A stretch of 64,000 nt of DNA from a virus: the IMG/VR virus record IMGVR_UViG_3300031673_000026, positions 1 to 64,000 of that record; one strand, 5' to 3'. Below are positions 7,653 through 59,578 of the stretch, piece by piece. The notes beneath the pieces were generated by a model. It made no database searches and was not told the origin of the DNA. It saw nothing but the letters and a program-made list of their open reading frames with translations. The position numbers were made by a program, and so were the translations under genes. Each line of letters begins with the position of its first letter. Position 1 is the first letter of the stretch.

Positions 7653-7922
7653 TCAATCTCCTTCTTGCTTAGATATATATCCCCTGACAATCCTGGTTGA
7701 TTCCCTAATCCCTTCCAGAAACCCTTCCCGGCGCCCATCCGCGCAGCCCTTCCGGTAGGCCCCGATCACATTGACTACCATCCCACAAAGGATTCCAATC
7801 ACAACGACAATGCTCCTTCCGCCCGCGAGCAAATAGCTGGAAATGGTCATTACCGTAAGTAGTGCCGCGGTGACCGGCAGCAGGAATTCACGGATTGGCG
7901 CTATCATCTTTTCATATTTCAT
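7653..7922 (-). CDS. Small membrane protein, two transmembrane helices
   Basis: An 89-residue protein with two hydrophobic helices (about residues 14-33 and 38-56), followed by a basic tail with 'GRREGFLEGI'. The ATG overlaps the TGA of the upstream truncated gene. The same general plan (two helices plus short charged tail) recurs at 9568-9762. Function unknown; a membrane-modifying accessory role is a guess. Confidence 0.6.
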   Translation of the reverse strand: MKYEKMIAPIREFLLPVTAALLTVMTISSYLLAGGRSIVVVIGILCGMVVNVIGAYRKGCADGRREGFLEGIRESTRIVRGYISKQEGD

Positions 7923-8077
7923 AATTCCTTCCCCCTCTTGTCCAGGCAGCCCGTACAGCCCTGCATTCCGTATTCTGAGAACGTAGTCACCTTATTATAT
8001 TCCACCCAGTTCACCACCGATTCCAGGACTTTGATTACTTCGTTTTCGGTCATTTCGTACCATTGCTGCTTATTCAT
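7919..8077 (-). pseudogene. Truncated copy of the 22157-22600 gene
   Basis: The first 38 residues are almost identical to the start of the 147-residue protein at 22157-22600 on the other strand, including 'MTENEVIKVLESVVNWVEYN'. The DNA matches for about 115 bases with only a few substitutions, then diverges abruptly after 'SEYG' and stops 14 codons later ('...KRGKEL'). It keeps its ribosome binding site and a 4-base overlap with the next gene, so a 52-residue product may still be made. This looks like a partial duplication that moved to the opposite arm. Confidence 0.7.
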
Positions 8078-8078
8078 T

Positions 8079-8297
8079 TTACCACTCCCTTGATTTTTGG
8101 CCGGCATAAGCAATACTAATCAATTCGTCGCCGTTGAAATTTTCTGAAAAATATCTTTGTATATAATCGACCAGCGCACGCGACCCTTCATCTTCTTTTA
8201 TTTTTGTAGTTATTGGCTTGCACCCTAAACTACAATACATATATGCAACACCAAAGCCTTCGTGATTATAAGTGTAAGAAGCCTTATATATTCTCAT
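8079..8297 (-). CDS. Small protein of unknown function
   Basis: A 72-residue soluble protein with Tyr-rich N-terminus ('MRIYKASYTYNHEGFG'). It starts at the ATG at 8297 with GAGGACAC just upstream and ends one base before the next start. No family recognised; the chain of short, tightly spaced neighbours supports it as a real gene. Confidence 0.5.
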   Translation of the reverse strand: MRIYKASYTYNHEGFGVAYMYCSLGCKPITTKIKEDEGSRALVDYIQRYFSENFNGDELISIAYAGQKSREW

Positions 8298-8552: not shown

Positions 8553-8774
8553 TCAATTTGCCCAAATATATAAGTCATACGCTATTAACTGTTTATTAAT
8601 CAGTATGTCCGCCACTTCGTTTCCCAGGTTGAACATTTCCTCATCTCTTTCAATGCCCATTACTTCGGCGCACGTGCTGCTTAAGTCATCGGGATTAAGA
8701 TGGTCGGTATAGATGGAACCTTTCCAATTCTTTAACATCCACCTTTTAGCTTTTGCTACGTCTTTCTTTTTCAT
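8553..8774 (-). CDS. Small acidic protein, first gene after an internal promoter
   Basis: A 73-residue protein with 'AKRWMLKNW' shared with its downstream neighbour (8310-8528). The ATG at 8774 follows CGGAGGTTAAT, the leader of the promoter cassette at 8810-8838; an upstream in-frame TTG lies in that leader and is rejected. Function unknown. Confidence 0.6.
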   Translation of the reverse strand: MKKKDVAKAKRWMLKNWKGSIYTDHLNPDDLSSTCAEVMGIERDEEMFNLGNEVADILINKQLIAYDLYIWAN

Positions 8775-8809
8775 ATTAACCTCCGTTTTATTTAATTTCA
8801 ACTATCTAT

Positions 8810-8838
8810 ATAATAGCATCTTTTTTCTATTTTGTCAA
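8810..8838 (-). promoter_or_regulatory. Promoter cassette copy 1 (leftward)
   Basis: On the minus strand TTGACA (8838-8833), a 17-base spacer and TATTAT (8815-8810), followed by the conserved leader that ends in CGGAGG before the ATG at 8774. A T-rich block starts exactly 30 bases upstream of the -35, as in the copies at 14898 and 21187. Drives 8774 and the genes to its left. Confidence 0.85.
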
Positions 8839-9129
8839 CTATTTCCCAAATAAAAATAAAAAAAGTTTTGCTACCCTGCCAAACAGGCGATGGAACAGCC
8901 CGCCCTTGACCCTGCCCCCAGTCCCGAATTGATCGACACATGCCTGGCACCGCCTGGTATATAGCCCGCGTGCCCCTACCGCGACGGCACGCATGTGCTC
9001 TCCGTATAGACCGCACCTTTCCCTGGCATCTATCGTTTGGCTAAAGTGATCACAGTTACACATGTCGCAATTTAACGGGTCATTGTCGGCAACTTCAATG
9101 CTGGCTTCGATTTGTTTTGTGATTCTCAA
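8839..9129 (-). CDS. Cys-rich small protein (CxLY family)
   Basis: A 96-residue protein with Cys spacing 'CDMCNC', 'CGLY' and 'RRCQACVDQFG'. The same order (Cys cluster, C-x-LY, RC-x2-C, then Phe) is found in the proteins at 39237-39452 and 39449-40021, so this is a small family in the phage, probably metal-binding. The TTG at 9129 is preferred because GGAG lies 7 bases upstream; a GTG at 9141 lacks a site. The last codons lie in the T-rich block of the promoter cassette. Confidence 0.55.
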   Translation of the reverse strand: MRITKQIEASIEVADNDPLNCDMCNCDHFSQTIDARERCGLYGEHMRAVAVGARGLYTRRCQACVDQFGTGGRVKGGLFHRLFGRVAKLFLFLFGK

Positions 9130-10338: not shown

Positions 10339-10752
10339 TTACACGACCCTATCCAGGGCCGCTTCCATTTCTTTTCTCGTACAATTATAGGGAACCTTTT
10401 CACCGTAGATAACTATCCAGTGCGGTTGATCAAGGCCCTTTTCGCGGACCCTCTCACCGTTCGGGAGAAACCCGCGTTCCCCAAGCCATTTCTCCGCCGC
10501 TTCCAGGTCGTAGAATACGCGGCCGTCCCTACCAGTTACGGCATGGTATCCGCCTTCCGGACGCATCGTAATCCCGGCGGTGTCGATTTTTTTGCCATCC
10601 GGTGTGAGTCCGCGGCGCTCCATCCACCGTTCCGCCCCGCGACGTGTTTTGAATACTTTCGATTGAGTTGCCGTCAGGGCTAAAAAGCTGCCCCTTTCCT
10701 CAATGATGCCCACTACGTAGCTTTCGCCGTTTCCTAACTCATGCTTGGTCAT
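10339..10752 (-). CDS. Repeat protein, paralogue of 10778-11173
   Basis: A 137-residue protein with two internal units of about 35 residues (pattern 'AxxxWxxxRGxxPxGxxI/V' ending each, 'RGLTPDGKKI' and 'RGFLPNGERV'). The C-terminus 'IVIYGEKVPYNCTR' is nearly identical to that of the adjacent gene. The pair arose by tandem duplication. Function unknown; the regular short beta-alpha units suggest a small binding scaffold. Confidence 0.6.
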   Translation of the reverse strand: MTKHELGNGESYVVGIIEERGSFLALTATQSKVFKTRRGAERWMERRGLTPDGKKIDTAGITMRPEGGYHAVTGRDGRVFYDLEAAEKWLGERGFLPNGERVREKGLDQPHWIVIYGEKVPYNCTRKEMEAALDRVV

Positions 10753-10777: not shown

Positions 10778-11173
10778 TTACACAGCTTTATTTAAGGCCG
10801 CGTTAAGCTCTTCTCTCGTACAATTATAGGGTATTTTCTCCCCATAGATAACTATAAAGCATGGCTTGTATGTCCCGCTTTTCACTACCCGCCCGTATCC
10901 ATTATCACCAAGCCATGTCTCTGCCTCTTCAGGGTTCAAAAATGAACACCCGAACATATCGGTCGTGGTGGAATAGCCGCCATCTGCCAGCTTCGTAATC
11001 CCGGCGGTACTGATTTTTTTGCCATGAGCAGCGAACCCCCTACTTAGCAGCCAGGCAGTTGCCCCCTTAAGATCATTGAAACGCTTTGATTCGGTCGGTG
11101 ACAGGGCCATGAATTGCCGCCCTATCTTGGTGATACCGACCGTATAGTATCTATCGGGCTTGTTTTCTTTCAT
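10778..11173 (-). CDS. Repeat protein, first gene after a promoter cassette
   Basis: A 131-residue protein with the same two-unit layout and the same C-terminal 'IVIYGEKIPYNCTR' as 10339-10752. The ATG at 11173 follows CGGAGGTAATT, the leader of the promoter at 11213-11241, so it is the promoter-proximal gene. Function unknown. Confidence 0.62.
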   Translation of the reverse strand: MKENKPDRYYTVGITKIGRQFMALSPTESKRFNDLKGATAWLLSRGFAAHGKKISTAGITKLADGGYSTTTDMFGCSFLNPEEAETWLGDNGYGRVVKSGTYKPCFIVIYGEKIPYNCTREELNAALNKAV

Positions 11174-11212
11174 AATTACCTCCGTTTTTTATTTAATTTC
11201 AACTTCGGTATA

Positions 11213-11241
11213 ATAATAGCATCTTTTTTCTATTTTGTCAA
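11213..11241 (-). promoter_or_regulatory. Promoter cassette copy 2 (leftward, with inverted AT tract)
   Basis: Minus-strand TTGACA (11241-11236), 17-base spacer, TATTAT (11218-11213), then the conserved ACCGAAGTTGAAATTAAAT leader. The upstream 20-base AT block (11252-11271) is present at the same distance as in other copies but in reversed orientation. Confidence 0.85.
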
Positions 11242-11269
11242 CTAATTTCTTAAACTTTTTTTATTTTGT

Positions 11270-11449
11270 TCAAGAATCTACCAGCGGTCGCCGCTGCCTT
11301 ATTAATTCATAATCCGCCGCCTCATCGTGGCCAACATTATTATAGTAATCATCTGATACCGCCTCGTAATCTATCGCGTCCGGGTCACCGCCGGAGCGCC
11401 ACACGTCATAAAATACATCGTTTTCGTAATCCCGCCTACTTTTTCTCAT
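11270..11449 (-). CDS. Small acidic protein
   Basis: A 59-residue Asp/Tyr-rich protein ('DYENDVFYDVW', 'SDDYYNNVGHDEAADYE'). ATG at 11449 with GGAG upstream, overlapping the TGA of the previous gene. Such acidic Tyr-rich phage miniproteins can mimic DNA, but nothing here proves it. Confidence 0.5.
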   Translation of the reverse strand: MRKSRRDYENDVFYDVWRSGGDPDAIDYEAVSDDYYNNVGHDEAADYELIRQRRPLVDS

Positions 11450-14705: not shown

Positions 14706-14897
14706 CAAAAAAATAAAAAAAGATTCCAGGGGGCCGATTGGGGCAAGTGGGTAAAAAAGGAAGGCGGGGCCCGTTAGGACCCCATGGAGTTGAAATCATA
14801 TAAATTTGGAGGATTTGTATGATGCTTATATTATACATCCATTTTCGGGCTTTTTCAACCGGGGCGGAAACTTTTTTTATTTTGTTTGAAAGAATAG
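14706..14897. other. Divergent intergenic control region
   Basis: Between the two diverging promoters. It contains a GGGGCCCGTTAGGACCCC hairpin (about 14766-14783), no recognised operator repeat and no repressor gene nearby. A 43-codon frame (14819-14950) with a GGAGG site reads across the rightward promoter; it is mostly the translated promoter cassette and is not called as a gene. The last 30 bases are the T-rich block of the cassette. Confidence 0.5.
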
Positions 14898-14926
14898 TTG
14901 ACAAAATAGAAAAGTTATGCTATTAT
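14898..14926 (+). promoter_or_regulatory. Promoter cassette copy 3 (rightward)
   Basis: TTGACA (14898-14903), 17-base spacer, TATTAT (14921-14926), then the conserved leader to CGGAGG and the ATG at 14964. The T-rich block begins 30 bases before the -35 (14868). Nearly identical to the copy at 21187 over more than 70 bases. Confidence 0.88.
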
Positions 14927-14963
14927 TATACCGAAGTTGAAATTAAATAAAACGGAGGTAATT

Positions 14964-17387: not shown

Positions 17388-18730
17388 AACTGATTTGCAG
17401 CCCGCTGGGTGGGTATTCGCTTTTGTCACGCGATAAGTGGCATATATCGTACATGAACCCGGACGGCAGCCTTGACATGCCGCGCCTGGAAGAAATCCTG
17501 CGGAGGATAGCCAACGCTGGAGCGAACGCCATCAGGGAATTTCCCTGGTGGATACAGAATGAAGGGGAAATGGCGGTGCTTAGTGGCTTTACTGTAGACA
17601 AGTCTCTGCCTGCTCACAATGACATGATTATGAATCCTAACTATTTCAATAATCAACGTACGATAGCAGAGACAGCGAAGAAATATAACCTGGAATATAT
17701 CTTTTGTCTCTACAACAACAGCGAAACGGTCCCTAATAAGGACGGCGTTTTCTCCCCATGGTCACAATGGAACGGCGATAAGGAATTTTTCTATAAGAAT
17801 GAAGCCGGTCCCTACCGAAAGCAGTGGATAGAAAAAATACTAGAGACGTTCACCGGCATGGAAAACGTTTCTTATGATCTGGTCAATGAAGGGTCACACA
17901 AATACCCGGTAGAAATAGCGCAAATGTACCTGGGGATGCTAAGTTACGGGGTGCCGGTAAACAGGCTCAGTATCGGGATAAATTACGGTGAAAAGAAGAT
18001 AAATACCGATCTTATCGGCAGTTACAAAAAGTTTTCAGATAGGATCATATTCCTTCGCGGTGAGCAATTCTATATCGACAATGTTAAACGGCCCAGCGGG
18101 TCCTGGAGCCCGTTCCACGCCATCGATGATAAGAGATTGGCGGTATTCTGGACCGACGGGCTGGAGCCAGGCCAGGGAGTTCCAAAAGGCGGGCACCGGC
18201 CGACAAAATACAGCACCGACGGAACACGAATTGACGGCCTGCGCCCGAATCTCATGCAGACATACGATATGGCCAAGCGCGTCATGAGCACGAAATCAAG
18301 GGCGGTAGATAAGGGTATCGTTGCTATAGAGGTACTATTCGGAAAAGAAATGAATATTGTTGACCCCACGGCAGCCATGACAGGACTAACGCTGGCATAC
18401 CAGGAACATACCGGTGAATTTCCGGAAAATTACGGAAAATTCCCTGCCGAAGAAGTGCCGCCGGAGGATACAGATATCGATGAAGCGGTGGATTTGCTTT
18501 CGGGAATGATAGGGGAGCGGCTACAGATTATCGAGAAAACAGAGAAAGCCCTCAAGTTAATCGATAGATTCGTCGCGGAAGCTACAGCGTTAGAGCCCAC
18601 GGCGGCCTCACAATTAGGAAAGGCCGGCCGGGCCGTGTTCGCCGCAAAGGAAATGAGTACCGGCCCGATAGAACAAATAGTAAGCGCCCTGAAATTTATC
18701 GATGAATATAATGGACAGGTGGCAAAATGA
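17372..18730 (+). CDS. Clan-A-like glycoside hydrolase (cellulase-type TIM barrel)
   Basis: A 452-residue protein. Residues 1-340 look like a (beta/alpha)8 glycosidase: 'GANAIREFPWW' (strand 2 region), 'YDLVNEGSH' with Glu173 as likely acid/base, and 'FLRGEQFYI' further on. A canonical nucleophile motif is not obvious, so the enzyme may be atypical or binding-only. Residues 360-452 form a charged helical tail. No signal peptide. Likely acts on host surface polysaccharide, alone or as part of the virion. Confidence 0.6.
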   Translation: MPDKIKLICSPLGGYSLLSRDKWHISYMNPDGSLDMPRLEEILRRIANAGANAIREFPWWIQNEGEMAVLSGFTVDKSLPAHNDMIMNPNYFNNQRTIAETAKKYNLEYIFCLYNNSETVPNKDGVFSPWSQWNGDKEFFYKNEAGPYRKQWIEKILETFTGMENVSYDLVNEGSHKYPVEIAQMYLGMLSYGVPVNRLSIGINYGEKKINTDLIGSYKKFSDRIIFLRGEQFYIDNVKRPSGSWSPFHAIDDKRLAVFWTDGLEPGQGVPKGGHRPTKYSTDGTRIDGLRPNLMQTYDMAKRVMSTKSRAVDKGIVAIEVLFGKEMNIVDPTAAMTGLTLAYQEHTGEFPENYGKFPAEEVPPEDTDIDEAVDLLSGMIGERLQIIEKTEKALKLIDRFVAEATALEPTAASQLGKAGRAVFAAKEMSTGPIEQIVSALKFIDEYNGQVAK

Positions 18731-19641
18731 TACTTGGAATCAATCTACACAACCCACACCCTGACTCCTTGGGGGTTCTCAAGGAATTTGGTTTTAAGCA
18801 CGTCCGGTTGGATTTTTCATGGGATATCCTGGAGCCGGAAAGAGATGCTCATAACAATGAGCAAATGGACTACGCTGTCGAATGGGCGAAGGAAAACGAT
18901 ATCGATGTCCTGGGGATACTGGCATATACCCCCGGATGGGCTAATGGCGGGAATAGCAGGAATTATCCGCCCTTGGAAGTAGAAATCAGGTACTGGCAAC
19001 GATTTGTTCATCTAACGATACAGCGTTACCACTGGGTGAAATATTGGGAAATATGGAACGAGCCCAATCTCGATCAATTTTTTCATGGCGACGTTGCGGA
19101 GTACATGAGCAAGGTTTACGTGCCTGCGAAAGATGTCATCCGGGGGCACGCAAGCCGTCAAATAACGATGAATTATAGCGGGCCCTATGTATGCGGACCG
19201 GCGCTTGCACACCTGGAGGGGGCTAATTGGTCGCGGTGGATGAGGGATATCCTTGGTGGACATCCCTATTCCGATGATATTGCCGTTGTGACGCACCATA
19301 ATTACCCGGAAGACCCAAACGAATTTTGGCAACGCATGGAGAAGGTTCGTAAAATACAGGCCGGGGAAGGGCACGCTGATAAGCCGCTGTGGATAACCGA
19401 GTTCGGGCGGAAGGTAGGTAGGTATATAACGGAAGCCGAACAGGCAGAGTGGTTCCGGGCGCAACTTTCCGTATTTAACGGTCACGATGAAATTGATAGG
19501 GCATACATATACGTACAATACGATGACTCGGACCCGAAATATGCAGGTTTTGGCCTTACCGGCCCGCCCCCTGAGTTTCGGATGAAACCGGCCGGGGAAG
19601 TGGTGAAAGAATATTTACGAAAACAAGGAGAAATAACATGA
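18727..19641 (+). CDS. Glycoside hydrolase, GH39/GH5-like
   Basis: A 304-residue TIM-barrel glycosidase. 'EIWNEPN' gives the acid/base Glu112 and 'WITEFG' the nucleophile Glu225; the order and ~113-residue spacing fit clan-A retaining enzymes (GH39, GH5, GH53 relatives). 'GFKHVRLDFSWDILEPE' is the usual strand-2 region. It overlaps the previous gene by 4 bases, making a tandem glycosidase pair. Probably a polysaccharide depolymerase; no secretion signal, so virion attachment or release by lysis is needed. Confidence 0.78.
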   Translation: MILGINLHNPHPDSLGVLKEFGFKHVRLDFSWDILEPERDAHNNEQMDYAVEWAKENDIDVLGILAYTPGWANGGNSRNYPPLEVEIRYWQRFVHLTIQRYHWVKYWEIWNEPNLDQFFHGDVAEYMSKVYVPAKDVIRGHASRQITMNYSGPYVCGPALAHLEGANWSRWMRDILGGHPYSDDIAVVTHHNYPEDPNEFWQRMEKVRKIQAGEGHADKPLWITEFGRKVGRYITEAEQAEWFRAQLSVFNGHDEIDRAYIYVQYDDSDPKYAGFGLTGPPPEFRMKPAGEVVKEYLRKQGEIT

Positions 19642-21098: not shown

Positions 21099-21186
21099 TA
21101 TCAAGTAATTTCACCGTTCGACCGGGCGATGGAAACGTAGGTCACCACTCCGCGCAAAACTTTTTTTATTTTGTTTAAGAAATTAG

Positions 21187-21215
21187 TTGACAAAATAGAA
21201 AAGTTATGCTATTAT
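21187..21215 (+). promoter_or_regulatory. Promoter cassette copy 4 (rightward)
   Basis: TTGACA (21187-21192), 17-base spacer, TATTAT (21210-21215), conserved leader, then TTGGAGG and ATG at 21255. The T-rich block starts at 21157. Starts the second rightward accessory operon. Confidence 0.88.
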
Positions 21216-21254
21216 TATACCGAAGTTGAAATTAAATAAAAATTGGAGGATAAA

Positions 21255-21548
21255 ATGACTTTAAAGAGGAAGCTGTACAAGAAGGACGGAACGTTTGTCA
21301 AGCTGGAAACACCACTCAATCTCATCAGCATAGACAAGATGAGCGACTGCAAGAACGTCGATGCCCCTATATTCGGTGACATCGATGAAAATACCGAAAT
21401 CGCTATCTACAAAATCGACGGGACGAATGATTACCTCGTTTCCATTGATTTTTACGGTGATGACGTTGACTATACAGACGATTCGATTGTGAGCGCTGAC
21501 GAAAGAACGGTGCTCATCGAAAAGTACAATTTAGGGAGGAAAAAATGA
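21255..21548 (+). CDS. Small acidic protein, promoter-proximal
   Basis: A 97-residue protein with an Asp-rich second half ('DFYGDDVDYTDDSIVSADE'). The ATG at 21255 follows TTGGAGGATAAA. Overlaps the next gene by 4 bases. Function unknown. Confidence 0.6.
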   Translation: MTLKRKLYKKDGTFVKLETPLNLISIDKMSDCKNVDAPIFGDIDENTEIAIYKIDGTNDYLVSIDFYGDDVDYTDDSIVSADERTVLIEKYNLGRKK

Positions 21549-21817
21549 ACGTATATTTTAAGTTAGAAGAAAAAAAGGAAGGCCAGGAAATCTTTTGGTG
21601 CGGCATTGATGCCGAAACGGCATGGGAGTACGATGATTATTGTGACGAAGTGGGGCGCTATGGAGACGAAGGCACCTACACCATGACAGGGCATGAGTTT
21701 CGGAATAGCGATATTCACAGTGATTTTAACCGGGCCTACAACTTGCTCCCGGTAGGCGTTGAGATGGCGGACATTAGGTGTCTGCCCACCACAAGACACG
21801 GAGGACAAAATGAATGA
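21545..21817 (+). CDS. Small protein of unknown function
   Basis: A 90-residue acidic protein ('AWEYDDYCDEVGRYGDEGTY') with a more basic tail. Coupled at both ends. No family recognised. Confidence 0.58.
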   Translation: MNVYFKLEEKKEGQEIFWCGIDAETAWEYDDYCDEVGRYGDEGTYTMTGHEFRNSDIHSDFNRAYNLLPVGVEMADIRCLPTTRHGGQNE

Positions 21818-22145
21818 AGTAAAATTTAGAGAAAGAACAACCATGGTGGTCGATAACAATCCAAACGGTAATTATGAAGAAAGTATCGGCGACCACACGC
21901 TTTTAGTATCCGATACTGTAATTTGTGAGTGGGACTCCGATGACAGCGAATACGGCTACCAGGCGAACGCTATTTACCCGGCGTATTGGGATGGAAAAAA
22001 ATCATGGTTGCACACCACAAGCTGGATTCCAGGTAGTGGGTATTGTGCAGACGGCGGCGGAGACAATATCCTATCATGGGAAGATGGGGTCGATCTCTTG
22101 CTAAGGCGAGGGGCCTACGAGCAAGCTTTTGAAAATAGCAAATAA
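21810..22145 (+). CDS. Small protein of unknown function
   Basis: A 111-residue protein; the ATG at 21810 has GGAGGACAAA upstream and overlaps the preceding gene by 8 bases. Trp-rich centre ('YPAYWDGKKSWLHTTSWIPG'). Function unknown. Confidence 0.58.
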   Translation: MNEVKFRERTTMVVDNNPNGNYEESIGDHTLLVSDTVICEWDSDDSEYGYQANAIYPAYWDGKKSWLHTTSWIPGSGYCADGGGDNILSWEDGVDLLLRRGAYEQAFENSK

Positions 22146-22156
22146 CGGAGGATAAA

Positions 22157-22600
22157 ATGAGTAAGCAACAATGGTACAAGATGACCGAAAACGAAGTAAT
22201 CAAAGTCCTGGAATCGGTGGTGAACTGGGTGGAATATAATAAGGTAACTACGTTCTCGGAATACGGAACGCAGGTAATTATCGAGACGGACGGAAGCGTC
22301 GAAACAATGGGCTCCAATACCCGCCCGACGGATGATTACGCCGGTGATATCCTATATATGACCGACGTTATCGGGTACGGAAATATCGACCAGGATTACT
22401 ACCTGGACGGCTGGGGCGAAGTCATAGAGGATGGAGACTTTTTCTTAACCGACGATGGGAGAAAACTGGAGATAAAAGAGGCCATAGAAGAAGCCATCGA
22501 GGATGGAGATTTTACCGACGATATTCAGAAGGTAAAAGACCAGGCGCTTTTCGTCTGGAGCGAAGCTATGAGAAACTATCGCGAAGGCTTCGGGGAATAA
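22157..22600 (+). CDS. Acidic protein; intact parent of the 7919-8077 fragment
   Basis: A 147-residue protein. The first ~38 residues are duplicated on the minus strand at 8077-7963. The rest is acidic, with two similar blocks ('EVIEDGDFFLTDD' and 'EAIEDGDFTDD'). GGAGG precedes the ATG. Function unknown. Confidence 0.6.
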   Translation: MSKQQWYKMTENEVIKVLESVVNWVEYNKVTTFSEYGTQVIIETDGSVETMGSNTRPTDDYAGDILYMTDVIGYGNIDQDYYLDGWGEVIEDGDFFLTDDGRKLEIKEAIEEAIEDGDFTDDIQKVKDQALFVWSEAMRNYREGFGE

Positions 22601-22675: not shown

Positions 22676-22846
22676 ATGAAACAAAAAACAGAAGGAAAGT
22701 TATTAACGCGGAGCCTGTGTCCGTGTGGAAACAAGATAGATGACATCTATCTTAATGCAGGCGGGTATCCCATCTGCGAAAAGTGTGCGGGAATCGAATA
22801 CTCATCCCCGGCTTACGGGGAAAAAAAGGAGGCGTGCTATGAATGA
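22676..22846 (+). CDS. Zinc-ribbon miniprotein
   Basis: A 56-residue protein with 'CPCGNKIDD' and 'CEKCAG', two CxxC-type knuckles about 18 residues apart. ATG at 22676 with GGAGG upstream. Likely binds one zinc; role unknown. Confidence 0.6.
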   Translation: MKQKTEGKLLTRSLCPCGNKIDDIYLNAGGYPICEKCAGIEYSSPAYGEKKEACYE

Positions 22847-23135
22847 AATGACACATATAATTGAAGGCGGGAACGTACTGGAAGTTATAGTTTTGAGAAG
22901 CGACGAAATTGTGAAGGCATTGCAATTAGCCGCTTATCCAAAATTATATATACTGCCAAACGGAATAATGATGGAGACAATTACTTTCCACTGGCACTAC
23001 AACGAAATGACAGGACAGACATTTTTTCATAGCAATGGCCGACCGGTCAAAGAAAATTCAGTAATTTCTTCCCTGCGGTATTGCATGGGGCGAATTGAAA
23101 TGACTTTAAAAGGAGGAAAAAACAATGACAATTGA
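22839..23135 (+). CDS. Small protein upstream of the Acr candidate
   Basis: A 98-residue protein; the ATG at 22839 follows AAGGAGGCG. 'FHWHYNEMTGQTFFHSNG' is His-rich. Its end overlaps the next gene by 11 bases, so it is co-translated with the DUF1874 protein. Function unknown. Confidence 0.58.
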   Translation: MNEMTHIIEGGNVLEVIVLRSDEIVKALQLAAYPKLYILPNGIMMETITFHWHYNEMTGQTFFHSNGRPVKENSVISSLRYCMGRIEMTLKGGKNNDN

Positions 23136-23529
23136 CAAATATATCAGAAGCGCAAACGCAGAGTACAGTCGCATAACCGCACTTAACGTTGCGGTATTAA
23201 CGGCACCGGGGCGATTCCGGTTAATTTCAGTCACACCGGAGGATGCAAGAAAAATATGGAAGGAAACCCCAATCAGGGAATCTGCCATAGGGCACGAGGC
23301 GACCGCGAAGGTAATGTCAACATTACTGGACGATGATATCCCCGTCAATCGGGTTAAATTCGTGCAGGAAGCCGGGGAAATAGTCATGGTGTTACAAATG
23401 CGGGAACGCATCCCCGAAGGAACCGTATTGACAACCGTAGAAGAAATGGACGCCATCGGTTATGATTTTTTTCTCCTGTATATGGGGAAGGCAGATGGTC
23501 AAGCGGGTTGGCTGGAAAGGCACTGTTAA
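23125..23529 (+). CDS. DUF1874 / AcrIII-1-like ring nuclease (anti-CRISPR candidate)
   Basis: A 134-residue protein. From residue 19 it follows the DUF1874 (B116, AcrIII-1) pattern: 'ALNVAVLT' first strand, 'SAIGHEATAKVMSTLL' with His57 at the position of the catalytic His, 'IPVNRVKF', then 'VMVLQMRERIPEGTVLT'. Known members (SIRV1 gp29 type) degrade cyclic tetra-adenylate and so block type III CRISPR immunity. Residues 1-18 are an extra N-terminal segment; the ATG has GGAGG upstream so the extension looks real. It sits in the early operon, where anti-host genes are expected. Family assignment is strong; activity is inferred. Confidence 0.83.
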   Translation: MTIDKYIRSANAEYSRITALNVAVLTAPGRFRLISVTPEDARKIWKETPIRESAIGHEATAKVMSTLLDDDIPVNRVKFVQEAGEIVMVLQMRERIPEGTVLTTVEEMDAIGYDFFLLYMGKADGQAGWLERHC

Positions 23530-23552: not shown

Positions 23553-23933
23553 ATGAATAGCAAAACAAAAGCCCTGCTCTCCGGAGAAGTCCTAACCGAC
23601 TTCGCCCCGCGAGAAAGTAAGTTCTACGCCTTCGCAACCGGCGGAACAATGTACAGATGGGAAGGGGATGTCTTTATGAGCCGGACAATCGTATTCTACT
23701 ACAATAGCAAGTACAAGATTGTCGTAGCGGGAACAGTTACCTACCGAATAGATGGAGTCGCTGCAGCCTACTCCCCGGCGAGATTTGCGGAGCACATCAG
23801 CAACGCAAAAACCGAAACCCACGAACTATGCCCCCCGGAAAAATTAGCAGAACACATGGCTCTGGAAAGCTTTCGGGTCATGGACCCGGAAATAATGAAG
23901 GAAGTAAACGAAAGAAAAGGAGAAATAAAATGA
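23553..23933 (+). CDS. Protein of unknown function next to Acr candidate
   Basis: A 126-residue protein, ATG at 23553 with GGAGGAG-type site upstream. N-terminal half beta-rich ('YAFATGGTMYRWEGDVFM'), C-terminal half helical. Neighbours of anti-CRISPR genes are often also anti-defence, but nothing specific is seen here. Confidence 0.58.
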   Translation: MNSKTKALLSGEVLTDFAPRESKFYAFATGGTMYRWEGDVFMSRTIVFYYNSKYKIVVAGTVTYRIDGVAAAYSPARFAEHISNAKTETHELCPPEKLAEHMALESFRVMDPEIMKEVNERKGEIK

Positions 23934-24298
23934 AAAAAGAAAACCAATACAGGAAAATCGTGATCAAGTTGCACCCGGATGGGAAAAACTATGAGATCGG
24001 CATGTACCTATCAAAAAACAAGAAAGAAGACATGAAACTTTACCGGCGGCTATTATCCATGACTGTGAATAGCGGAAGACAAATCGGTCGAGAAACAATC
24101 TACCATCTCTACCGCAACCAGGGTCTTGTTATAAGGAGCTTTCATAACGATAGCGTACTGATAGTGCGTATCAAAGAAATATCGGAAAGAATGTACGGGA
24201 AACGTGACCGGGGAAAGTACGGGGATGTCTGCCGGAGGATGCTGTTAGAAGAAACCGGCATCGACAGCCGCGCCACACGCAAGGTAACAGTGCAATGA
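23930..24298 (+). CDS. Basic protein of unknown function
   Basis: A 122-residue basic protein (many Lys/Arg, 'KKNKKEDMKLYRRLL', 'RMYGKRDRGKYGD'). Could bind nucleic acid. Coupled to both neighbours by 4-base overlaps. Confidence 0.58.
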   Translation: MKKENQYRKIVIKLHPDGKNYEIGMYLSKNKKEDMKLYRRLLSMTVNSGRQIGRETIYHLYRNQGLVIRSFHNDSVLIVRIKEISERMYGKRDRGKYGDVCRRMLLEETGIDSRATRKVTVQ

Positions 24299-25266
24299 AA
24301 CGCGGAATGATCCCCACTTCCCTGGCGATAGGTGCCACGGCGATAAGCCTCTATGCCGGGTGGGGATTTTACATTAATTATGTCGCCTGGGAAACCGCCG
24401 CTCTAATCGTTGTAGTTCTGGAGTCCGGGCGGCTTTCTACCGGGTACTATTGCATATACCGTAAGAAGCGGCCGCTTTGGTTCGCATATGCCATTATCGC
24501 CCTTATGTGTGCAGTTCCAGCCTGGGTCTCAATAACCGCTGAGATGATACACGCGGAGCGGGAAGCTAACCGGCAATATGAGCCCGCCATCTATAGCATT
24601 AAGCGGGCGGCGGTGAAATTCTACAGCGAAGAAATAGCGACGTTACAGCGGGAATTAGCGGAAGCGGAGCAGGGCAAAGGGGATGCAATCGCTGGGGTAG
24701 AAAGGAATAGCGGGAACCGATACGAGCGAAGCTGGAAAGGAAAATCGAAGCGATACTCGGCAGCGGCGGAGCGGATAAAAAGCGAAATTGCAGCGGTGCA
24801 GAGTAAGAGCGCCGCGGCGACAAGCCATATCCCGGATAACCCCCGGGAATGGTGCGAGATTAACTCCGCCCGGTACGGGGTAACAGTAGGCCTGCCGATC
24901 AATAAGACCTCGGTTGTATCATCCGTGATAATTGATATCATTGGTGTACCGGAACGGACAGTTAAGGCGATACTCGCCGGGTGCCTGGTAGGCGTCGTGG
25001 AACTTTGTATAATTTTGTTTTCTTTTCTGGCTAACGGGAAGAAGGAAGAAGGGAGCGGGCCGGTAGCGGAAAAGAGCGAAGCGGTAGCGGAAAATGGCGG
25101 GCCGGTAGCGGACAAACTTAAAGGTATGCGACCCGGTAAAAAGGAAGATTTTCTCTATTACTGCGACAGGCATAAGGTAGGGACCAACAATGCAAAAGTA
25201 TACAACGGGCATTGCAGCAAGGACGCCCGGGAAGATAAAGAAATAAAGAAAAAGGAGGAAAAATGA
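24295..25266 (+). CDS. Multi-pass membrane protein with central coiled coil
   Basis: A 323-residue protein with three N-terminal hydrophobic helices (about 7-27, 34-50, 61-81), a long Glu/Arg coiled coil (95-175), and a further hydrophobic stretch (about 205-250). A degenerate repeat 'GPVAEKSEAVAENGGPVADK' (about 258-277) precedes a charged tail. This resembles phage and plasmid DUF-type membrane sensors in layout only. Function unknown. Confidence 0.6.
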   Translation: MKRGMIPTSLAIGATAISLYAGWGFYINYVAWETAALIVVVLESGRLSTGYYCIYRKKRPLWFAYAIIALMCAVPAWVSITAEMIHAEREANRQYEPAIYSIKRAAVKFYSEEIATLQRELAEAEQGKGDAIAGVERNSGNRYERSWKGKSKRYSAAAERIKSEIAAVQSKSAAATSHIPDNPREWCEINSARYGVTVGLPINKTSVVSSVIIDIIGVPERTVKAILAGCLVGVVELCIILFSFLANGKKEEGSGPVAEKSEAVAENGGPVADKLKGMRPGKKEDFLYYCDRHKVGTNNAKVYNGHCSKDAREDKEIKKKEEK

Positions 25267-44084: not shown

Positions 44085-44713
44085 TAATTACAAATAGAGT
44101 TAACGGCCTGGAGCTTGTATACTGGAAAAAGCTAACCTGGCTCCAGATTAAAGGGGCTGAAGGCGGGGATACGGGACTCAAGGAGCTATATGAAAGGGAA
44201 GCAAAGCAATTAATGAAGTCCCTTGGTAAGCACAGCTTCGTGGACCCGTTCAAGGTTTGGAAGGACCCGAAAGGCAAAATGTGGATACTTGACGGACACC
44301 ATAGGCAGGCCATATTGGAAGAGGTATTGAAGCAAAACGGAACCGTACCGGACCTATTGCCCGCGGTATTTATCGATTGCCGGGACAGAAAGGAAGCCGG
44401 GGAATTGGTGTTGACGTTCACGGCGATTTATGCGAAGCCCACCGGGCAGGGTGTTACCAGGCATATGGAGGAGTTCGGATTGGAGCTAAGTGATATCGAC
44501 GACCTGTCATTGCCGGGAATAAATTTTGATGATTTCAAGAGTGAGTTTTTTGATGAGACGGGATTGCTGGGGGGGGCACCATCAGGTATCGACCAAAACA
44601 AGTTAAAAACAGAATTTGAAATTGTGGTGGAATGCCGGGATGAAGAAGAACAAGAAAGTATTTACAATAAATTGAAAGGGGACGGATATACATGCCGAAT
44701 TTTAACATTGTAA
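44081..44713 (+). CDS. ParB/Srx-like protein
   Basis: A 210-residue protein with 'ILDGHHRQAILEE' (DGHHR at 71-75), the ParB-type CTP/ATP-binding or nuclease motif. The C-terminal 60 residues are acidic and Gln/Glu-rich. It is joined to the ABC-GNAT gene by a 22-base overlap. ParB/Srx domains next to ABC ATPases with acetyltransferase domains have been proposed as phage DNA-modification systems. Confidence 0.72.
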   Translation: MIITNRVNGLELVYWKKLTWLQIKGAEGGDTGLKELYEREAKQLMKSLGKHSFVDPFKVWKDPKGKMWILDGHHRQAILEEVLKQNGTVPDLLPAVFIDCRDRKEAGELVLTFTAIYAKPTGQGVTRHMEEFGLELSDIDDLSLPGINFDDFKSEFFDETGLLGGAPSGIDQNKLKTEFEIVVECRDEEEQESIYNKLKGDGYTCRILTL

Positions 44714-45753
44714 GGAGAATTAAGCCAAGTGATTCGTTCCGGGTGAATTCGATAAAAGGGCAGTTTGATCTCAGTCTGGATGAGGTGGAAGAAAGGTTTA
44801 CCGGAGATATTGACATAGACGGTGCGGATTGGAATATTGGCCTTATATATGGAGCGAGCGGAACCGGAAAAACCACAATAGCAACGGAATTGTTTGGGGA
44901 GGGGTGCGTGTCTGAGTACGAATACAAGGAAAAGTCCATAATAGATGATATGCCGAAAAGCGTATCAACCGAGGACATAAGCAAATCTTTCAATTCTGTG
45001 GGCTTTTCGACTGTGTGGAGTTGGCTGAAGCCATACAGCGTCCTCTCAACCGGGGAAAAAATGAGGGTTAATTTATCCCGCGCTCTACTCAGCGATGCCG
45101 CCCTGATTGTTTTCGATGAATTCACAAGCGTTGTGAATCGTGAGGTGGCGAAGGCCGGGAGTTACGCCATATCCAAAGCAATAAGGAAACAAAAAAAGAA
45201 ATTCATCGCCGTTTCCTGTCATGATGACATCGTTGAGTGGTTAGGGCCGGACTGGACCCTATGCACGGACAATATGGAATTTTCAAGGAGGTCGGTTCGG
45301 CGACCTGAAATCAAGCTCGACATCTACCCGTCCGCCTACCGAAGATGGGCAACTTATAGGAAGTATCATTATATGAGCGAAAAACTGAATAAAGCGGCAA
45401 GGTGCTATGTGGCGAAAATAGGTAAGGTGGCGGTGGCGTTTGCTGCGGTGCTGCATTTGCCACACTGGAAAAGCAAAAATTTAAAGCGGCTCCACCGGAT
45501 GGTGGTGTTGCCCGATTACCAGGGATTGGGGATCGGGCATAAGTTCAATACTTTTTTGGCGGGGCATTACAAAGGGCTTGGATTTAGGTATGTGTTCACG
45601 TCTTCGAGCAAAGCGATGTTGAATTCAATAATCGGGGACAGAAACTGGGTGGTCAGGTCTAAGAAAAGGGGAATGGCCGGTGCGGTAAGCACTGTGGTAA
45701 TAAATAAAACGGCATCGAAAAGGTACACCTTTTCTTATGAGTACGTTGGTTAG
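44692..45753 (+). CDS. ABC ATPase fused to a GNAT acetyltransferase
   Basis: A 353-residue fusion. Residues 1-200 are a soluble ABC ATPase: Walker A 'GASGTGKTT' (54-62), signature 'LSTGEKMR' (118-125), Walker B 'ALIVFDE' (137-143), switch His177 ('SCHDD'). Residues 205-353 are a GNAT domain with the acetyl-CoA loop 'QGLGIG' (277-282). No transmembrane part, so not a transporter. Coupled to ParB-like and TerS genes. Substrate unknown; DNA base modification or a packaging-linked protein acetylation are the two main ideas. Confidence 0.82.
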   Translation: MPNFNIVRRIKPSDSFRVNSIKGQFDLSLDEVEERFTGDIDIDGADWNIGLIYGASGTGKTTIATELFGEGCVSEYEYKEKSIIDDMPKSVSTEDISKSFNSVGFSTVWSWLKPYSVLSTGEKMRVNLSRALLSDAALIVFDEFTSVVNREVAKAGSYAISKAIRKQKKKFIAVSCHDDIVEWLGPDWTLCTDNMEFSRRSVRRPEIKLDIYPSAYRRWATYRKYHYMSEKLNKAARCYVAKIGKVAVAFAAVLHLPHWKSKNLKRLHRMVVLPDYQGLGIGHKFNTFLAGHYKGLGFRYVFTSSSKAMLNSIIGDRNWVVRSKKRGMAGAVSTVVINKTASKRYTFSYEYVG

Positions 45754-46490: not shown

Positions 46491-46606
46491 GTGATATGAA
46501 AGCGATTACAGAACACGAAGCTGAATATAGTTTTGCCGGTATTGATTTTGCCGATGGTGAAGCGAAGACAGTGTTTTGTATAATCTCCCGCATAAAGGAG
46601 GGGGCC

Positions 46607-47422
46607 ATGAAAATAAATGAAGCTGGCGTCAAAGCTATAAGCCAACTGAAAGCAATCGCGGTACATGCGAGGCCAGAGGATATAGACAAGTATTGCTTCC
46701 CGCTAAACTTAGCGATGAGAAAATTCGGCATTGATACCCCGTTAAGAAAGGCCCATTTCCTTGCACAGGTGATTCATGAAAGCGGGCACTTCCGGTATGT
46801 CGAAGAAAATCTTAATTATAGCGCAGGGGCTCTTCGCATGGTATTTCGGAAGTATTTTCCTGTGGATGCGATGGCGGAGAAATATGCCGGGCAACCGGAA
46901 GCAATCGCTAACAGGGTGTACGCGAACCGGATGGAGAACGGGGATGAGAGGAGTGGTGATGGCTGGAGGTATAGGGGGCGGGGATTGATACAGTTGACCG
47001 GGAGGAGGAACTATCGAAGGTGCGGCAATGGTATAGGCGCTAATTTAGAAGATTACCCGGACGTGGTCGCAGAGAACACGTTTTATGCGGTCACAGCGTC
47101 AGCCTGGTATTGGAGAGATAATAACCTGAACTGGTTCGCCGACAAGGACGATATCGAGGAGGTAACCAGGGCTATAAATGGCGGGCTTAATGGGTTACGG
47201 GGCAGGCATGTACTGTTGGAAAAGGCAAAGAAAGTAATCGTAGAAGAGCAAAGGGAAATAATACGGGAGATGTTAGGCGCCGTGGGCAATATAGGTATAA
47301 CTGTCGAAGATTTAGAAAAAAAGCAACGGGAGCTAAACACGGAATGGAACAAGGTGCGTGGGTATGAGGAAAGCGCAACGATGAGGATGGGAAAAGCGGC
47401 GCAAGGATGGCGGAAAGCATGA
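46607..47422 (+). CDS. GH19-type endolysin
   Basis: A 271-residue muralytic enzyme. 'LAQVIHESGHFRYVEENLNYS' region gives Glu58 (acid) and the EEN element; 'GRGLIQLTGRRNY' is the substrate groove. Both are hallmarks of phage GH19 lysozymes. A C-terminal ~70-residue charged coiled coil is extra. ATG at 46607 follows AAGGAGGGGG; an in-frame ATG at 46496 has no such site. Sits between TerS and TerL, away from the holin-like gene. Confidence 0.82.
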   Translation: MKINEAGVKAISQLKAIAVHARPEDIDKYCFPLNLAMRKFGIDTPLRKAHFLAQVIHESGHFRYVEENLNYSAGALRMVFRKYFPVDAMAEKYAGQPEAIANRVYANRMENGDERSGDGWRYRGRGLIQLTGRRNYRRCGNGIGANLEDYPDVVAENTFYAVTASAWYWRDNNLNWFADKDDIEEVTRAINGGLNGLRGRHVLLEKAKKVIVEEQREIIREMLGAVGNIGITVEDLEKKQRELNTEWNKVRGYEESATMRMGKAAQGWRKA

Positions 47423-52794: not shown

Positions 52795-53121
52795 ATGAAA
52801 AATTATCAAGAGCTAAGGGACATAGTCGAGGCGGCAGGCAAGATTGGCTATGCGGTTAGGTGCCGCTGTTGTGAATACGCCGGCAGTGCAGGCTCGTATA
52901 TAACGAGTTCCCTTGACAAAGATTCGGGGGATATGGAAGTGTGGCTTAACTGCCCCAAATGCAATCATGGCAGCGTAGAAATAGCCGAAGACATTGGGTT
53001 GAGTAGCACGGAAATACTTGATTTGCAAAGCGGGAAAAAGAATATGGGTTTCGACTTTAGCAGGCTTGAGGCGTTCACTGAGAAATGCCAGGGAGAAAAC
53101 AATGTACACAATAAATTATGA
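52795..53121 (+). CDS. Zinc-ribbon protein in the head region
   Basis: A 108-residue protein: 'RCRCCEYAGS' and 'NCPKCNHGS' form a ribbon in the middle. Overlaps the first ClpP-like gene by 20 bases. Not a usual head component. Confidence 0.55.
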   Translation: MKNYQELRDIVEAAGKIGYAVRCRCCEYAGSAGSYITSSLDKDSGDMEVWLNCPKCNHGSVEIAEDIGLSSTEILDLQSGKKNMGFDFSRLEAFTEKCQGENNVHNKL

Positions 53122-53680
53122 AGGTGACGTCGATGAAGAAATGGTGGTTTTCTTTGTGAAGGAACTGAATTCGGCGACCGGTGATGAGGACATGACGATA
53201 TACCTGTCCTCCGATGGTGGTACCATGGCGTGCGCGGAAGTAATAATCGATGTGATAAGCAGGGCCGCAGTCAATAGGAACGTAACACTAGTCGCCAATT
53301 GGTCGGTGTCAAGTTGCGGCGCCTTGATATTCTTAGAAAGCATATGCAATAAATGCGTACTGCCGTCAGCGCACGGGGTACTTCACGAATTGTCAAGCTA
53401 TGACAACTCATTGATGATGAAGAGAGAAGACCCGCTACACGTAGGTCTTGAAAAAAGTCATGCGAAGTTACAAGAAAGTAAGATGAAACTATTCCGAATT
53501 ATCGGACTAAGCGAAAAGGAATTATCCGATATCAAGAAAGGCAAGGATATTTATTTTGATGCCGAAAGGTTGCGGGAATTTGTCGCTAACGTCGAAGCTG
53601 CCCGGGCCGAAAATTTAAAAGATTTACAAAAAGGTCTTATCGATCATTTCAGTGGGGAAACGGACGGTGACAGAAAATGA
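53102..53680 (+). CDS. ClpP-like serine protease 1
   Basis: A 192-residue ClpP/crotonase-fold protein. 'IYLSSDGGTMACAEVIID' matches the ClpP N-S-P-G-G oxyanion strand, 'SVSSCGALIF' aligns Ser71 with the catalytic Ser, and 'HGVLHE' places His95, 24 residues later as in ClpP. Gly73 of the elbow is kept. In many phages such proteins process head proteins, but this genome also has a Mu gpI-type protease, so another role is possible. Confidence 0.72.
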   Translation: MYTINYEGDVDEEMVVFFVKELNSATGDEDMTIYLSSDGGTMACAEVIIDVISRAAVNRNVTLVANWSVSSCGALIFLESICNKCVLPSAHGVLHELSSYDNSLMMKREDPLHVGLEKSHAKLQESKMKLFRIIGLSEKELSDIKKGKDIYFDAERLREFVANVEAARAENLKDLQKGLIDHFSGETDGDRK

Positions 53681-54204
53681 AAGCAATAGGATGGCGTGGC
53701 GATATCGACGCGGAAGCGTTGGGATTTTTTATAGATCAACTTAACGATACGGAGCCGGAGGAATCGGTATGCATATATATCGATTCGTCTGGCGGGCAGC
53801 CGGACTGTAGCGATGCGATTATCGATGTTATAGACCGATTCTCTGAGGACAGAAATTTGACACTTGCTGCCTACTGGGAAATATCGAGTGCCGCGTTTCA
53901 GATATTCATGAAGAGTAGGTGCGAAAAGGTGGTCCTCCCGGGCGCCCATGCGATAGTCCATAAGACAACACACCGAAATAACACACTGATGATGGACCGT
54001 GGCGACCCTTTGCACGTAGGCGTCGCATGCCAAAACGAAATGTTGCAGGTTGAAAAGTTGTCCTGGTTCTCTTCGATTGAGCTAACTGAAAGCGAAATGA
54101 GTGTAATAAAAAATAACGGAGACGTGTACCTCAATGCTAAAAGGTTGCGGGAAATCGTTAACAACATCGATACCGGTAAGCTCACCAACCAAAACAATAA
54201 ATGA
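53677..54204 (+). CDS. ClpP-like serine protease 2 (paralogue)
   Basis: A 175-residue tandem paralogue: 'IYIDSSGGQPDCSDAIIDVI', Ser71 ('EISSAAFQIF') and His95 ('HAIVHK') sit at the same numbers as in protein 1, but the Gly after Ser-x is Ala here. 4-base overlap. Could form mixed rings with protein 1 or be a weakened copy. Confidence 0.7.
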   Translation: MKAIGWRGDIDAEALGFFIDQLNDTEPEESVCIYIDSSGGQPDCSDAIIDVIDRFSEDRNLTLAAYWEISSAAFQIFMKSRCEKVVLPGAHAIVHKTTHRNNTLMMDRGDPLHVGVACQNEMLQVEKLSWFSSIELTESEMSVIKNNGDVYLNAKRLREIVNNIDTGKLTNQNNK

Positions 54205-58555: not shown

Positions 58556-59578
58556 ATGATCGCAGAAATCTATCAAGATATAGCCGATGTAATGATCGGG
58601 AAACCTCATGAGCTGTTGTCCGAACAGGATATCGATGAAATCATAGGGAACTTCGATCCTCAAAGATTCGAGCCGCCCGTCGTATTAGAGCATGATGAGG
58701 ATGGGACAGCGAAAACGTTTCCGTTCAATCTAGGAAAAATCATGAAGCTGTACAAGGAAGGGCGCGCCCTATGGGCAAGGGTCGGGATGCATACAGCATT
58801 GGCGCAACTGATAAAAGATGGACTGGTCAAAGGTAGGAGTATTCAGTTTTTCAGGAACTATGAAAATACGGGAAAGGCCGGGATGAGGCATTTATCGTTC
58901 TTGGGAAAATCGCCCCCACAAATCAAGGGAATGCCGGCAGTGGCGCTAAGTGAAAATTATAACGATAACAATAAGGAATCCGTTACTATCGAATTCCAGG
59001 AAGAGGAGAAAAGATGCAAATTAGAACCGATAAATTTACGGGAGGGAGAGAAGATGCCTGATGTAAAAGAAAGTGTATTCACCCTTTCGCAGCATGAGGC
59101 GCTGCTTGACGCCGCTGTCGAAAAGGCGAAGAGCGACGCTGCGGTCATGCTTAGCGAAAAAGAAGCGGGGCTCAGCGGGGAAATAGAGAAGCTGAGCGAA
59201 ACCGTATCCGCTAAGGACGCTGAGATAACGACGCTGAGAGAAAGTATCGTCGCTCTTAGTGAAGAGAAAAAGAAAATTCAGATCGTTTCTTTTCTTAATG
59301 AAAACCAACTGAAATTCCTTCCCGCTCACAGGGAATCGATCGAAGCGGAGCTGATGGAACTGTCTGATAAGACAAGGGCGGTAAAAATGAAGAACATGGC
59401 GGAGTTGCCTGACATCATTGAGCTCGGAGAGCGCAGCGGAGCGAGTACAGCCGCTCCTATATCCTCCGCTGGGGGTGTAACGGCGGTGGAACGAGCCATG
59501 TTCGGACTCACGGAAGACGACATGCGAAAATACGGCGGGATGGCAGAGCGGGCACTTAACGCCGGGAGGCAAAAATGA
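58556..59578 (+). CDS. Mu gpI-like head protease and scaffold, leaderless
   Basis: A 340-residue protein. The first 150 residues are the protease ('HLSFLGKSPPQIKGMP' is the gpI signature; 'VVLEHDEDGTAKTFPFNLG' the active-site strand). Residues 200-275 form a scaffold coiled coil, and the C-terminus ends 'MRKYGGMAERALNAGRQK' style. In Mu, an internal start gives the scaffold gpZ; ATG 59054 after GGAGGGAGAG could do so here. Confidence 0.82.
   Translation: MIAEIYQDIADVMIGKPHELLSEQDIDEIIGNFDPQRFEPPVVLEHDEDGTAKTFPFNLGKIMKLYKEGRALWARVGMHTALAQLIKDGLVKGRSIQFFRNYENTGKAGMRHLSFLGKSPPQIKGMPAVALSENYNDNNKESVTIEFQEEEKRCKLEPINLREGEKMPDVKESVFTLSQHEALLDAAVEKAKSDAAVMLSEKEAGLSGEIEKLSETVSAKDAEITTLRESIVALSEEKKKIQIVSFLNENQLKFLPAHRESIEAELMELSDKTRAVKMKNMAELPDIIELGERSGASTAAPISSAGGVTAVERAMFGLTEDDMRKYGGMAERALNAGRQK

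Follow-up and report, generated by a model that had tools for sequence, protein, structure and literature searches.

AcrIII-1 is reported to outnumber every other phage ring nuclease by a wide margin, occurring in 36 of 28,114 genomes, with the family present in 7 prokaryotic genomes (PMC12409355). In AFV3-109, His45, Arg64, Arg83, and Glu86 were described as lying in or at a conserved dimer cavity (PMC1796864). The H47A variant of SIRV1 gp29 is reported to be catalytically inactive and still binds cyclic tetra-adenylate (cA4) (PMC7213978), the H495A substitution in Csx1-Crn2 abolishes cA4 degradation (PMC7293037), and H47 has been taken as the model for a general-acid histidine (PMC12830947). 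The anti-CRISPR (Acr) role of AcrIII-1 is disputed, even for the SIRV protein, in a Nature 2025 exchange (640:E8, E15) to which PMC12751052 and PMC13131331 refer. According to PMC11065993, archaeal virus early genes have a common promoter, acrIII-1 genes rarely carry the early motif (0.13), and SIRV2 acrIII-1 is a middle gene whose product did not act as an Acr when expressed from the native promoter; the same paper linked the absence of an early promoter to this lack of activity under native expression.

The AcrIII-1-type gene studied here is encoded by a phage. The window, the 64,000-nt stretch of DNA that was analysed, comprises positions 1 to 64,000 of a virus record of 68,006 bases. The record is that of a tailed phage with Mu-type head genes (portal, gpF, and gpT) and a large-terminase-like protein, and it also carries RecT, PD-(D/E)XK nuclease, DnaD-like loader, and methyltransferase families. 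Other products include a single protein that fuses an ABC-type ATPase part with a GNAT acetyltransferase part (44692-45753), 5′ of the terminase region; glycosyl hydrolase domains at 18727-19641 and 46496-47422 (GH5/39-like and GH19); and two neighbouring Clp-protease-like proteins (53018-53680 and 53677-54204) that share 43% identity and lie near the portal gene. Searches of IMG/VR with the AcrIII-1-type protein, the portal, a 323-aa neighbour, a 360-aa product (59575-60657), and a promoter module found no relative of the phage, and neither did a megablast comparison of 24 kb with 50,697 phage records. In tblastn searches, five other proteins of the window gave distant matches only, with less than 60% identity per record. 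Because these hits span phages of very different hosts, the host is not assignable from them. Csm1 and Cmr2, both of which were matched in control genomes, had no match in the phage record, so the gene looks unlike a cellular Crn2 from a CRISPR locus. The gene is virus encoded, as AcrIII-1 is defined, and is not located near a type III CRISPR locus, as Crn2 is.

The gene at 23125-23529 (+) begins with ATG, encodes 134 aa, and is preceded by the ribosome-binding site AGGAGG (23111-23116, +), 8 nt ahead of the ATG, and by an in-frame stop 5 codons upstream. These features bear out the open reading frame (ORF) proposed from the sequence-only reading, with exactly the same boundaries. From codon 1 to codon 64 there is no alternative ATG, GTG, or TTG start. 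Therefore, any translation of the gene has to include the N-terminal extension described below, and a mis-called start as its source is ruled out. The family assignment of that reading, DUF1874/AcrIII-1, also holds. Residues 20 to 114 match positions 4 to 100 of the 101 in PF08960 with 79.2 bits (cut-off 26; E = 2.9e-22), and this is the single PF08960 match in the phage record. The protein further matches PHROG 5063 (unknown function; 67.9 bits) and a PADLOC model named Csx16 (66.3 bits), and an NCBIfam scan gave no family at E ≤ 1. A search for Csx16 (VVA1548) with TIGR02620 gave no match in the phage record and likewise none in the control genomes. Among PDB sequences, phmmer found AFV3-109 (E = 3.6e-15) and Csx1-Crn2 (E = 1.6e-5) as well as the entries for STIV B116 and SIRV1 ORF114/gp29.

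The SAIGHEATA motif with His57 is present as first noted, and the position of this histidine is of the catalytic type, since it aligns with the catalytic histidines of SIRV1 gp29 and Csx1-Crn2. In the alignments the His57 codon (23293-23295, +) is the equivalent of SIRV1 gp29 His47, AFV3-109 His45, and Csx1-Crn2 His495; the last shares its phmmer alignment column and is Ala in the H495A mutant structure 8y7g. The whole set expected of the site, namely the catalytic His in an SA[IV]GH motif together with the dimer-cavity Asn, two Arg, and Glu, is present (N21, G56, H57, R76, R95, and E98). These six residues are invariant among 15 sequences (the 134-aa protein, 13 tblastn hits, and SIRV1 gp29), and AFV3-109 His45, Arg64, Arg83, and Glu86 are the equivalents of H57, R76, R95, and E98. 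In a larger set of 55 sequences, G56, H57, R76, and R95 were found in 55 of 55, N21 in 52, and E98 in 51. Part of this set comes from 61 viral relatives found with the pattern SA[IV]GH[ED][ASV]TA, so that these relatives necessarily share that stretch; only R76, R95, E98, and N21 count as independent in the viral-contig part because the search motif surrounds the His. Start codons of the relatives were picked by a script with a simple Shine-Dalgarno (SD) rule, and 60 of the 61 gave an ORF with a start. Alignment A3 took in 44 of them; the 17 left out were L055, which gave no such ORF, and others judged to be duplicate, near-duplicate, truncated, or of doubtful start. The 55-sequence set omits a further four (L028, L033, L036, and L052).

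The predicted structure agrees with the sequence matches. An AlphaFold2 monomer model of the 134-aa protein, built on 45 sequences, had a mean pLDDT of 86.7 and a pTM of 0.80, and the first 17 rows of a Foldseek search of the PDB were all DUF1874 proteins or Csx1-Crn2. VIA-align superposed the model on 2j6b (AFV3-109) with a Z score of 15.4 (2.1 Å over 105 residues), on 8y7g_B (Csx1-Crn2 H495A with cA4) with 14.0 (2.6 Å over 122), and on 6scf_E (SIRV1 gp29) with 13.1 (2.4 Å over 105). The last is the overlay that had been proposed as a check of the fold, and the predicted model matches. Across 2j6b, 8y7g, 8y7f, 6scf, 2x4i, and 2j85 the Z scores ranged from 12.2 to 15.4, with 2x4i and 2j85 both at 12.2; 8y6z followed at 9.4, and the next entry reached only 2.6.

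Three features set the protein apart from most of its relatives. First, there are 20 residues before the conserved N21 compared to a median of 6 among the 55 sequences. The sequence-only reading had placed 18 extra residues outside the known core. The extension is real, but its length is about 14 to 15 residues rather than 18, as judged by the N21 spacing and by structural alignment to stand-alone viral proteins, in which the family fold begins at residue 15 or 16. Codons 1 to 15 (23125-23169, +) make up the extension, with a predicted helix at residues 3 to 13 (model pLDDT about 66 to 83). It is a minor variation and not unique to this protein. At least 16 residues precede the conserved Asn in 7 of the 55 sequences, namely the 134-aa protein, phiBB, phiKSUM, L034, L037, L048, and L059, the IMG/VR starts among these being set by the simple rule. 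Extensions evidently come and go, since the cores of phiBB and phiFN37 are near-identical and only phiBB is extended. Kinship with the phiBB and phiKSUM extensions was considered and set aside; those two resemble each other, and no likeness to the extension studied here was seen by eye. A limited literature search found no N-terminal extensions of AcrIII-1 in print and one paper that describes extensions of Crn4 relatives (PMC12830947). Second, the C-terminal tail runs to 16 residues past residue 118, compared to a median of 4 in the 55 sequences. Third, positions 22 to 24 in the β1-β2 loop (V22-A23-V24) are without Ser or Thr, which is the case in only 3 of the 55 sequences, this one included.

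The closest relative shares 46% identity, and 36 of 50,697 phage records match the protein, each at less than 60% identity. In the tree the protein sits on a long branch in a clade with a support of 77 (inner nodes 46 to 72). All named bacterial phage members apart from Hydrogenobaculum phage 1 and THSA-485A fall within this clade, and none of the archaeal virus sequences in the set does. The sole locus from genome contigs (L002) was rejected as a relative; its match covers query residues 15 to 50 and lies inside a 792-aa ORF that looks penicillin-binding-protein-like by eye. Several relatives were of interest in themselves. In Fusobacterium phage phiKSUM (L007, 2692-3312) the AcrIII-1 domain is preceded by about 100 aa that had no Pfam match over the cut-off, and the first 23 residues resemble the short phiBB (L003) extension. 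In Vibrio phage Rostov 7 (L008, 602-928), an SD-preceded ATG at 602 gives a complete DUF1874 protein; because the annotated coding sequence begins at 761, the deposited gene is without its first half, His motif included. A YddF/DUF1874 gene on Bacillus velezensis plasmid pVTX9_1 (L013, 2995-3321) lies in the same run of genes as one for conjugal transfer, and therefore conjugation-type elements carry the family too. Finally, Foldseek hits in BFVD from Erwinia phages Kwan (A0A1B2IEC3 and A0A1B2IEJ3) and phiEaH2 (J7KCD4) have the same predicted fold (probability 1.00) at 7 to 11% identity. These proteins, two of them in one phage, may be a divergent branch.

What is new here, and the most useful point of this report, is that a repeated promoter lies upstream of the AcrIII-1 gene. 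The phage has four copies of a 29-nt module (TTGACA-17-TATTAT, extended −10 with TG), each free of mismatches at the specified bases, where 0 copies are expected. The copy nearest upstream of the AcrIII-1 gene lies on the same strand at 21187-21215 (+), about 1.9 kb away and within the repeat 21151-21260. The others head a cluster from about 14964 on the + strand (14898-14926, +), a cluster from 11173 downwards (11213-11241, −), and a cluster from about 8774 downwards (8810-8838, −). They sit in repeats of 77 to 106 nt with 83 to 95% identity to the 21151-21260 copy. The repeats take in the leader and partly the ribosome-binding site, and each precedes the first gene of a small-gene cluster. 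As promoter-plus-leader modules, the copies span 8771-8871 (−), 11179-11255 (−), 14868-14952 (+), and 21151-21260 (+). An AT-rich upstream stretch of 25 nt (11252-11276) is inverted at the 11-kb copy. Behind one promoter copy lie tandem paralogues at 10339-10752 and 10778-11173 (−) with 48% identity; the former matches DUF1391 (PF07151; 60 bits at 10609-10746), a family that among the 14 control genomes was matched only in Escherichia coli.

The AcrIII-1 gene is ORF 7 of a same-strand run in which neighbours overlap or are separated by short gaps, the largest being 75 nt, before the ORF at 22676. The first gene after the promoter (21255-21548, 97 aa) is followed by genes for 90 aa (21545-21817), 111 aa (21810-22145), and 147 aa (22157-22600), none of the four with a PHROG match. 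The start of the last is covered by an inverted duplication of 137 bp with 92% identity (7960-8096 and 22140-22274), the other copy of which lies in a short ORF at 7919-8113 (−). Next come a 56-aa ORF (22676-22846) with CxxC pairs that look zinc-ribbon-like by eye, whose SD and start region resembles the promoter-repeat leader, and a 98-aa gene (22839-23135) whose last 11 nt are shared with the start of the AcrIII-1 gene. Directly 3′ of the AcrIII-1 gene are genes for 126 aa (23553-23933), 122 aa (23930-24298), and 323 aa (24295-25266). All of these are on the + strand, and the 98-aa gene and the three downstream genes likewise had no PHROG match. Between 20900 and 25552 no terminator-like site was found on the + strand, the counts of promoter-like and terminator-like sites in this region being not above those in shuffles. 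The strong sigma-70-type promoter at 21187-21215 probably drives the AcrIII-1 gene, and we infer that the run containing it is one operon. A weaker promoter-like site at 22129-22158 (10/12) could serve the gene instead. The four promoter-headed units are probably early, to judge from the sequence.

Taken together, these results make it quite probable that the gene encodes a homodimeric AcrIII-1 (DUF1874) ring nuclease that cuts cA4 and keeps type III effectors off, and that it is driven by the repeated promoter. Starting from the directly computed ORF, family, predicted fold, conserved catalytic-site residues, and promoter repeat, this explanation would add a dimer, cA4 cleavage, an operon, early timing, and an anti-CRISPR role. 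By analogy with characterised members, the dimer would close over cA4, with His57 acting as the general acid positioned by Arg76 and Glu98 of the partner subunit and with Arg95 at the dimer contact. The cA4 ring would be cut to A2>P halves, and with the loss of cA4 the cA4-activated type III CRISPR effectors would stay off during phage replication. The 15-residue N-terminal helix would lie outside the catalytic core as an added piece, probably dispensable for catalysis.

Other explanations were weighed. A ring nuclease with some other natural role than anti-CRISPR, for instance one directed at another defence system's cyclic nucleotide or one used in regulation, is unlikely, although it would fit the native failure of SIRV2 AcrIII-1 as an Acr and the early motif on only 0.13 of archaeal acrIII-1 genes (PMC11065993). 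Bacillus subtilis also speaks for it. Of the 14 control genomes, B. subtilis alone matched PF08960, and it belongs neither to the seven that matched Csm1 nor to the four that matched Cmr2. Carriage of the family by a mobile element therefore does not prove that its present host has type III CRISPR, and the prediction of the sequence-only reading that the host lineage uses such signalling does not follow from the presence of the family. However, the phage gene lies in a same-strand run behind a strong repeated promoter, which is the opposite of the SIRV2 arrangement. Under the preferred reading of a cA4 ring nuclease that serves as an anti-CRISPR, a more speculative extension, possible but doubtful, is that AcrIII-1 belongs to a regulon of four units, all driven by copies of one strong promoter, and is an early, true anti-CRISPR, that the other small genes behind these copies are candidate inhibitors of further defence systems, and that the helix may adjust docking or the stability of the dimer. 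Set against the middle-expressed archaeal copies, a phage AcrIII-1 copy behind a strong shared promoter is a natural contrasting case, which makes the disputed question of timing in AcrIII-1 function easier to test. The three other promoter-sharing clusters provide a short list of unknown genes for anti-defence screening.

Because the protein is divergent, lies on a long branch, and has no Ser or Thr at positions 22 to 24, its substrate handling could differ. With V22-A23-V24 where nearly all relatives have Ser or Thr (3 of 55 sequences are without) and with extra segments at both termini, it might bind cA4 and cut it poorly or not at all, serving as a sponge; this is quite unlikely, as the cavity residues H57, R76, R95, and E98 are all retained. 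A DNA-binding or transcription-regulating protein, as suggested by the GenBank label "DNA binding protein" on crenarchaeal homologues (AFV8, SIFV, and other records) and by a proposed resemblance to viral DNA-binding modules (PMC1796864), is highly improbable, given that this 2007 proposal is older than the enzymology, that two family members lose cA4 cleavage when the equivalent His is mutated (PMC7293037, PMC7213978), and that solved relatives contain cA4 (8y7g title). By comparison with characterised relatives, the 134-aa protein is probably an active, divergent cA4 ring nuclease of the known family.

Comparison with described systems shows where this ring nuclease candidate stands. It shares with SIRV1 gp29 (AcrIII-1, 6SCF) the fold (Z = 13.1), the catalytic-type histidine (His47/His57), the Asn, the Gly, both Arg, and the Glu. 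The two have 21% identity, and the phage protein differs in its N-terminal helix and in the loop V-A-V (A-F-S in gp29); its gene comes from a tailed phage and lies behind a repeated bacterial-type promoter. AFV3-109 (2J6B) is the best PDB match by both structure and sequence, but it has 109 aa and no extension and comes from an archaeal filamentous virus. The Crn2 domain of Marinitoga Csx1-Crn2 (8Y7G) has the same fold (Z = 14.0), with His495 equivalent to His57, whereas in Csx1-Crn2 that domain is fused to the Csx1 ribonuclease in a cellular protein encoded at a CRISPR locus (PMC7293037) and the phage protein is stand-alone. Csx16, reported to be a cA4-specific ring nuclease (PMC12409355), is linked to the 134-aa protein by the PADLOC Csx16 model, but Pfam places the protein in the STIV_B116-like family, NCBIfam gives it no family, and Csx16 itself is reported to align to 2J6B with a DALI Z score of only 4.8 (PMC12409355). 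The DUF1874 proteins of Fusobacterium phages phiBB, phiFN37, FNU3, Fnu1, and phiKSUM have 40 to 42% identity to the 134-aa protein; phiBB and phiKSUM also have long N-termini, which by eye are unlike that of the 134-aa protein, whereas phiFN37 has the family core without an extension.
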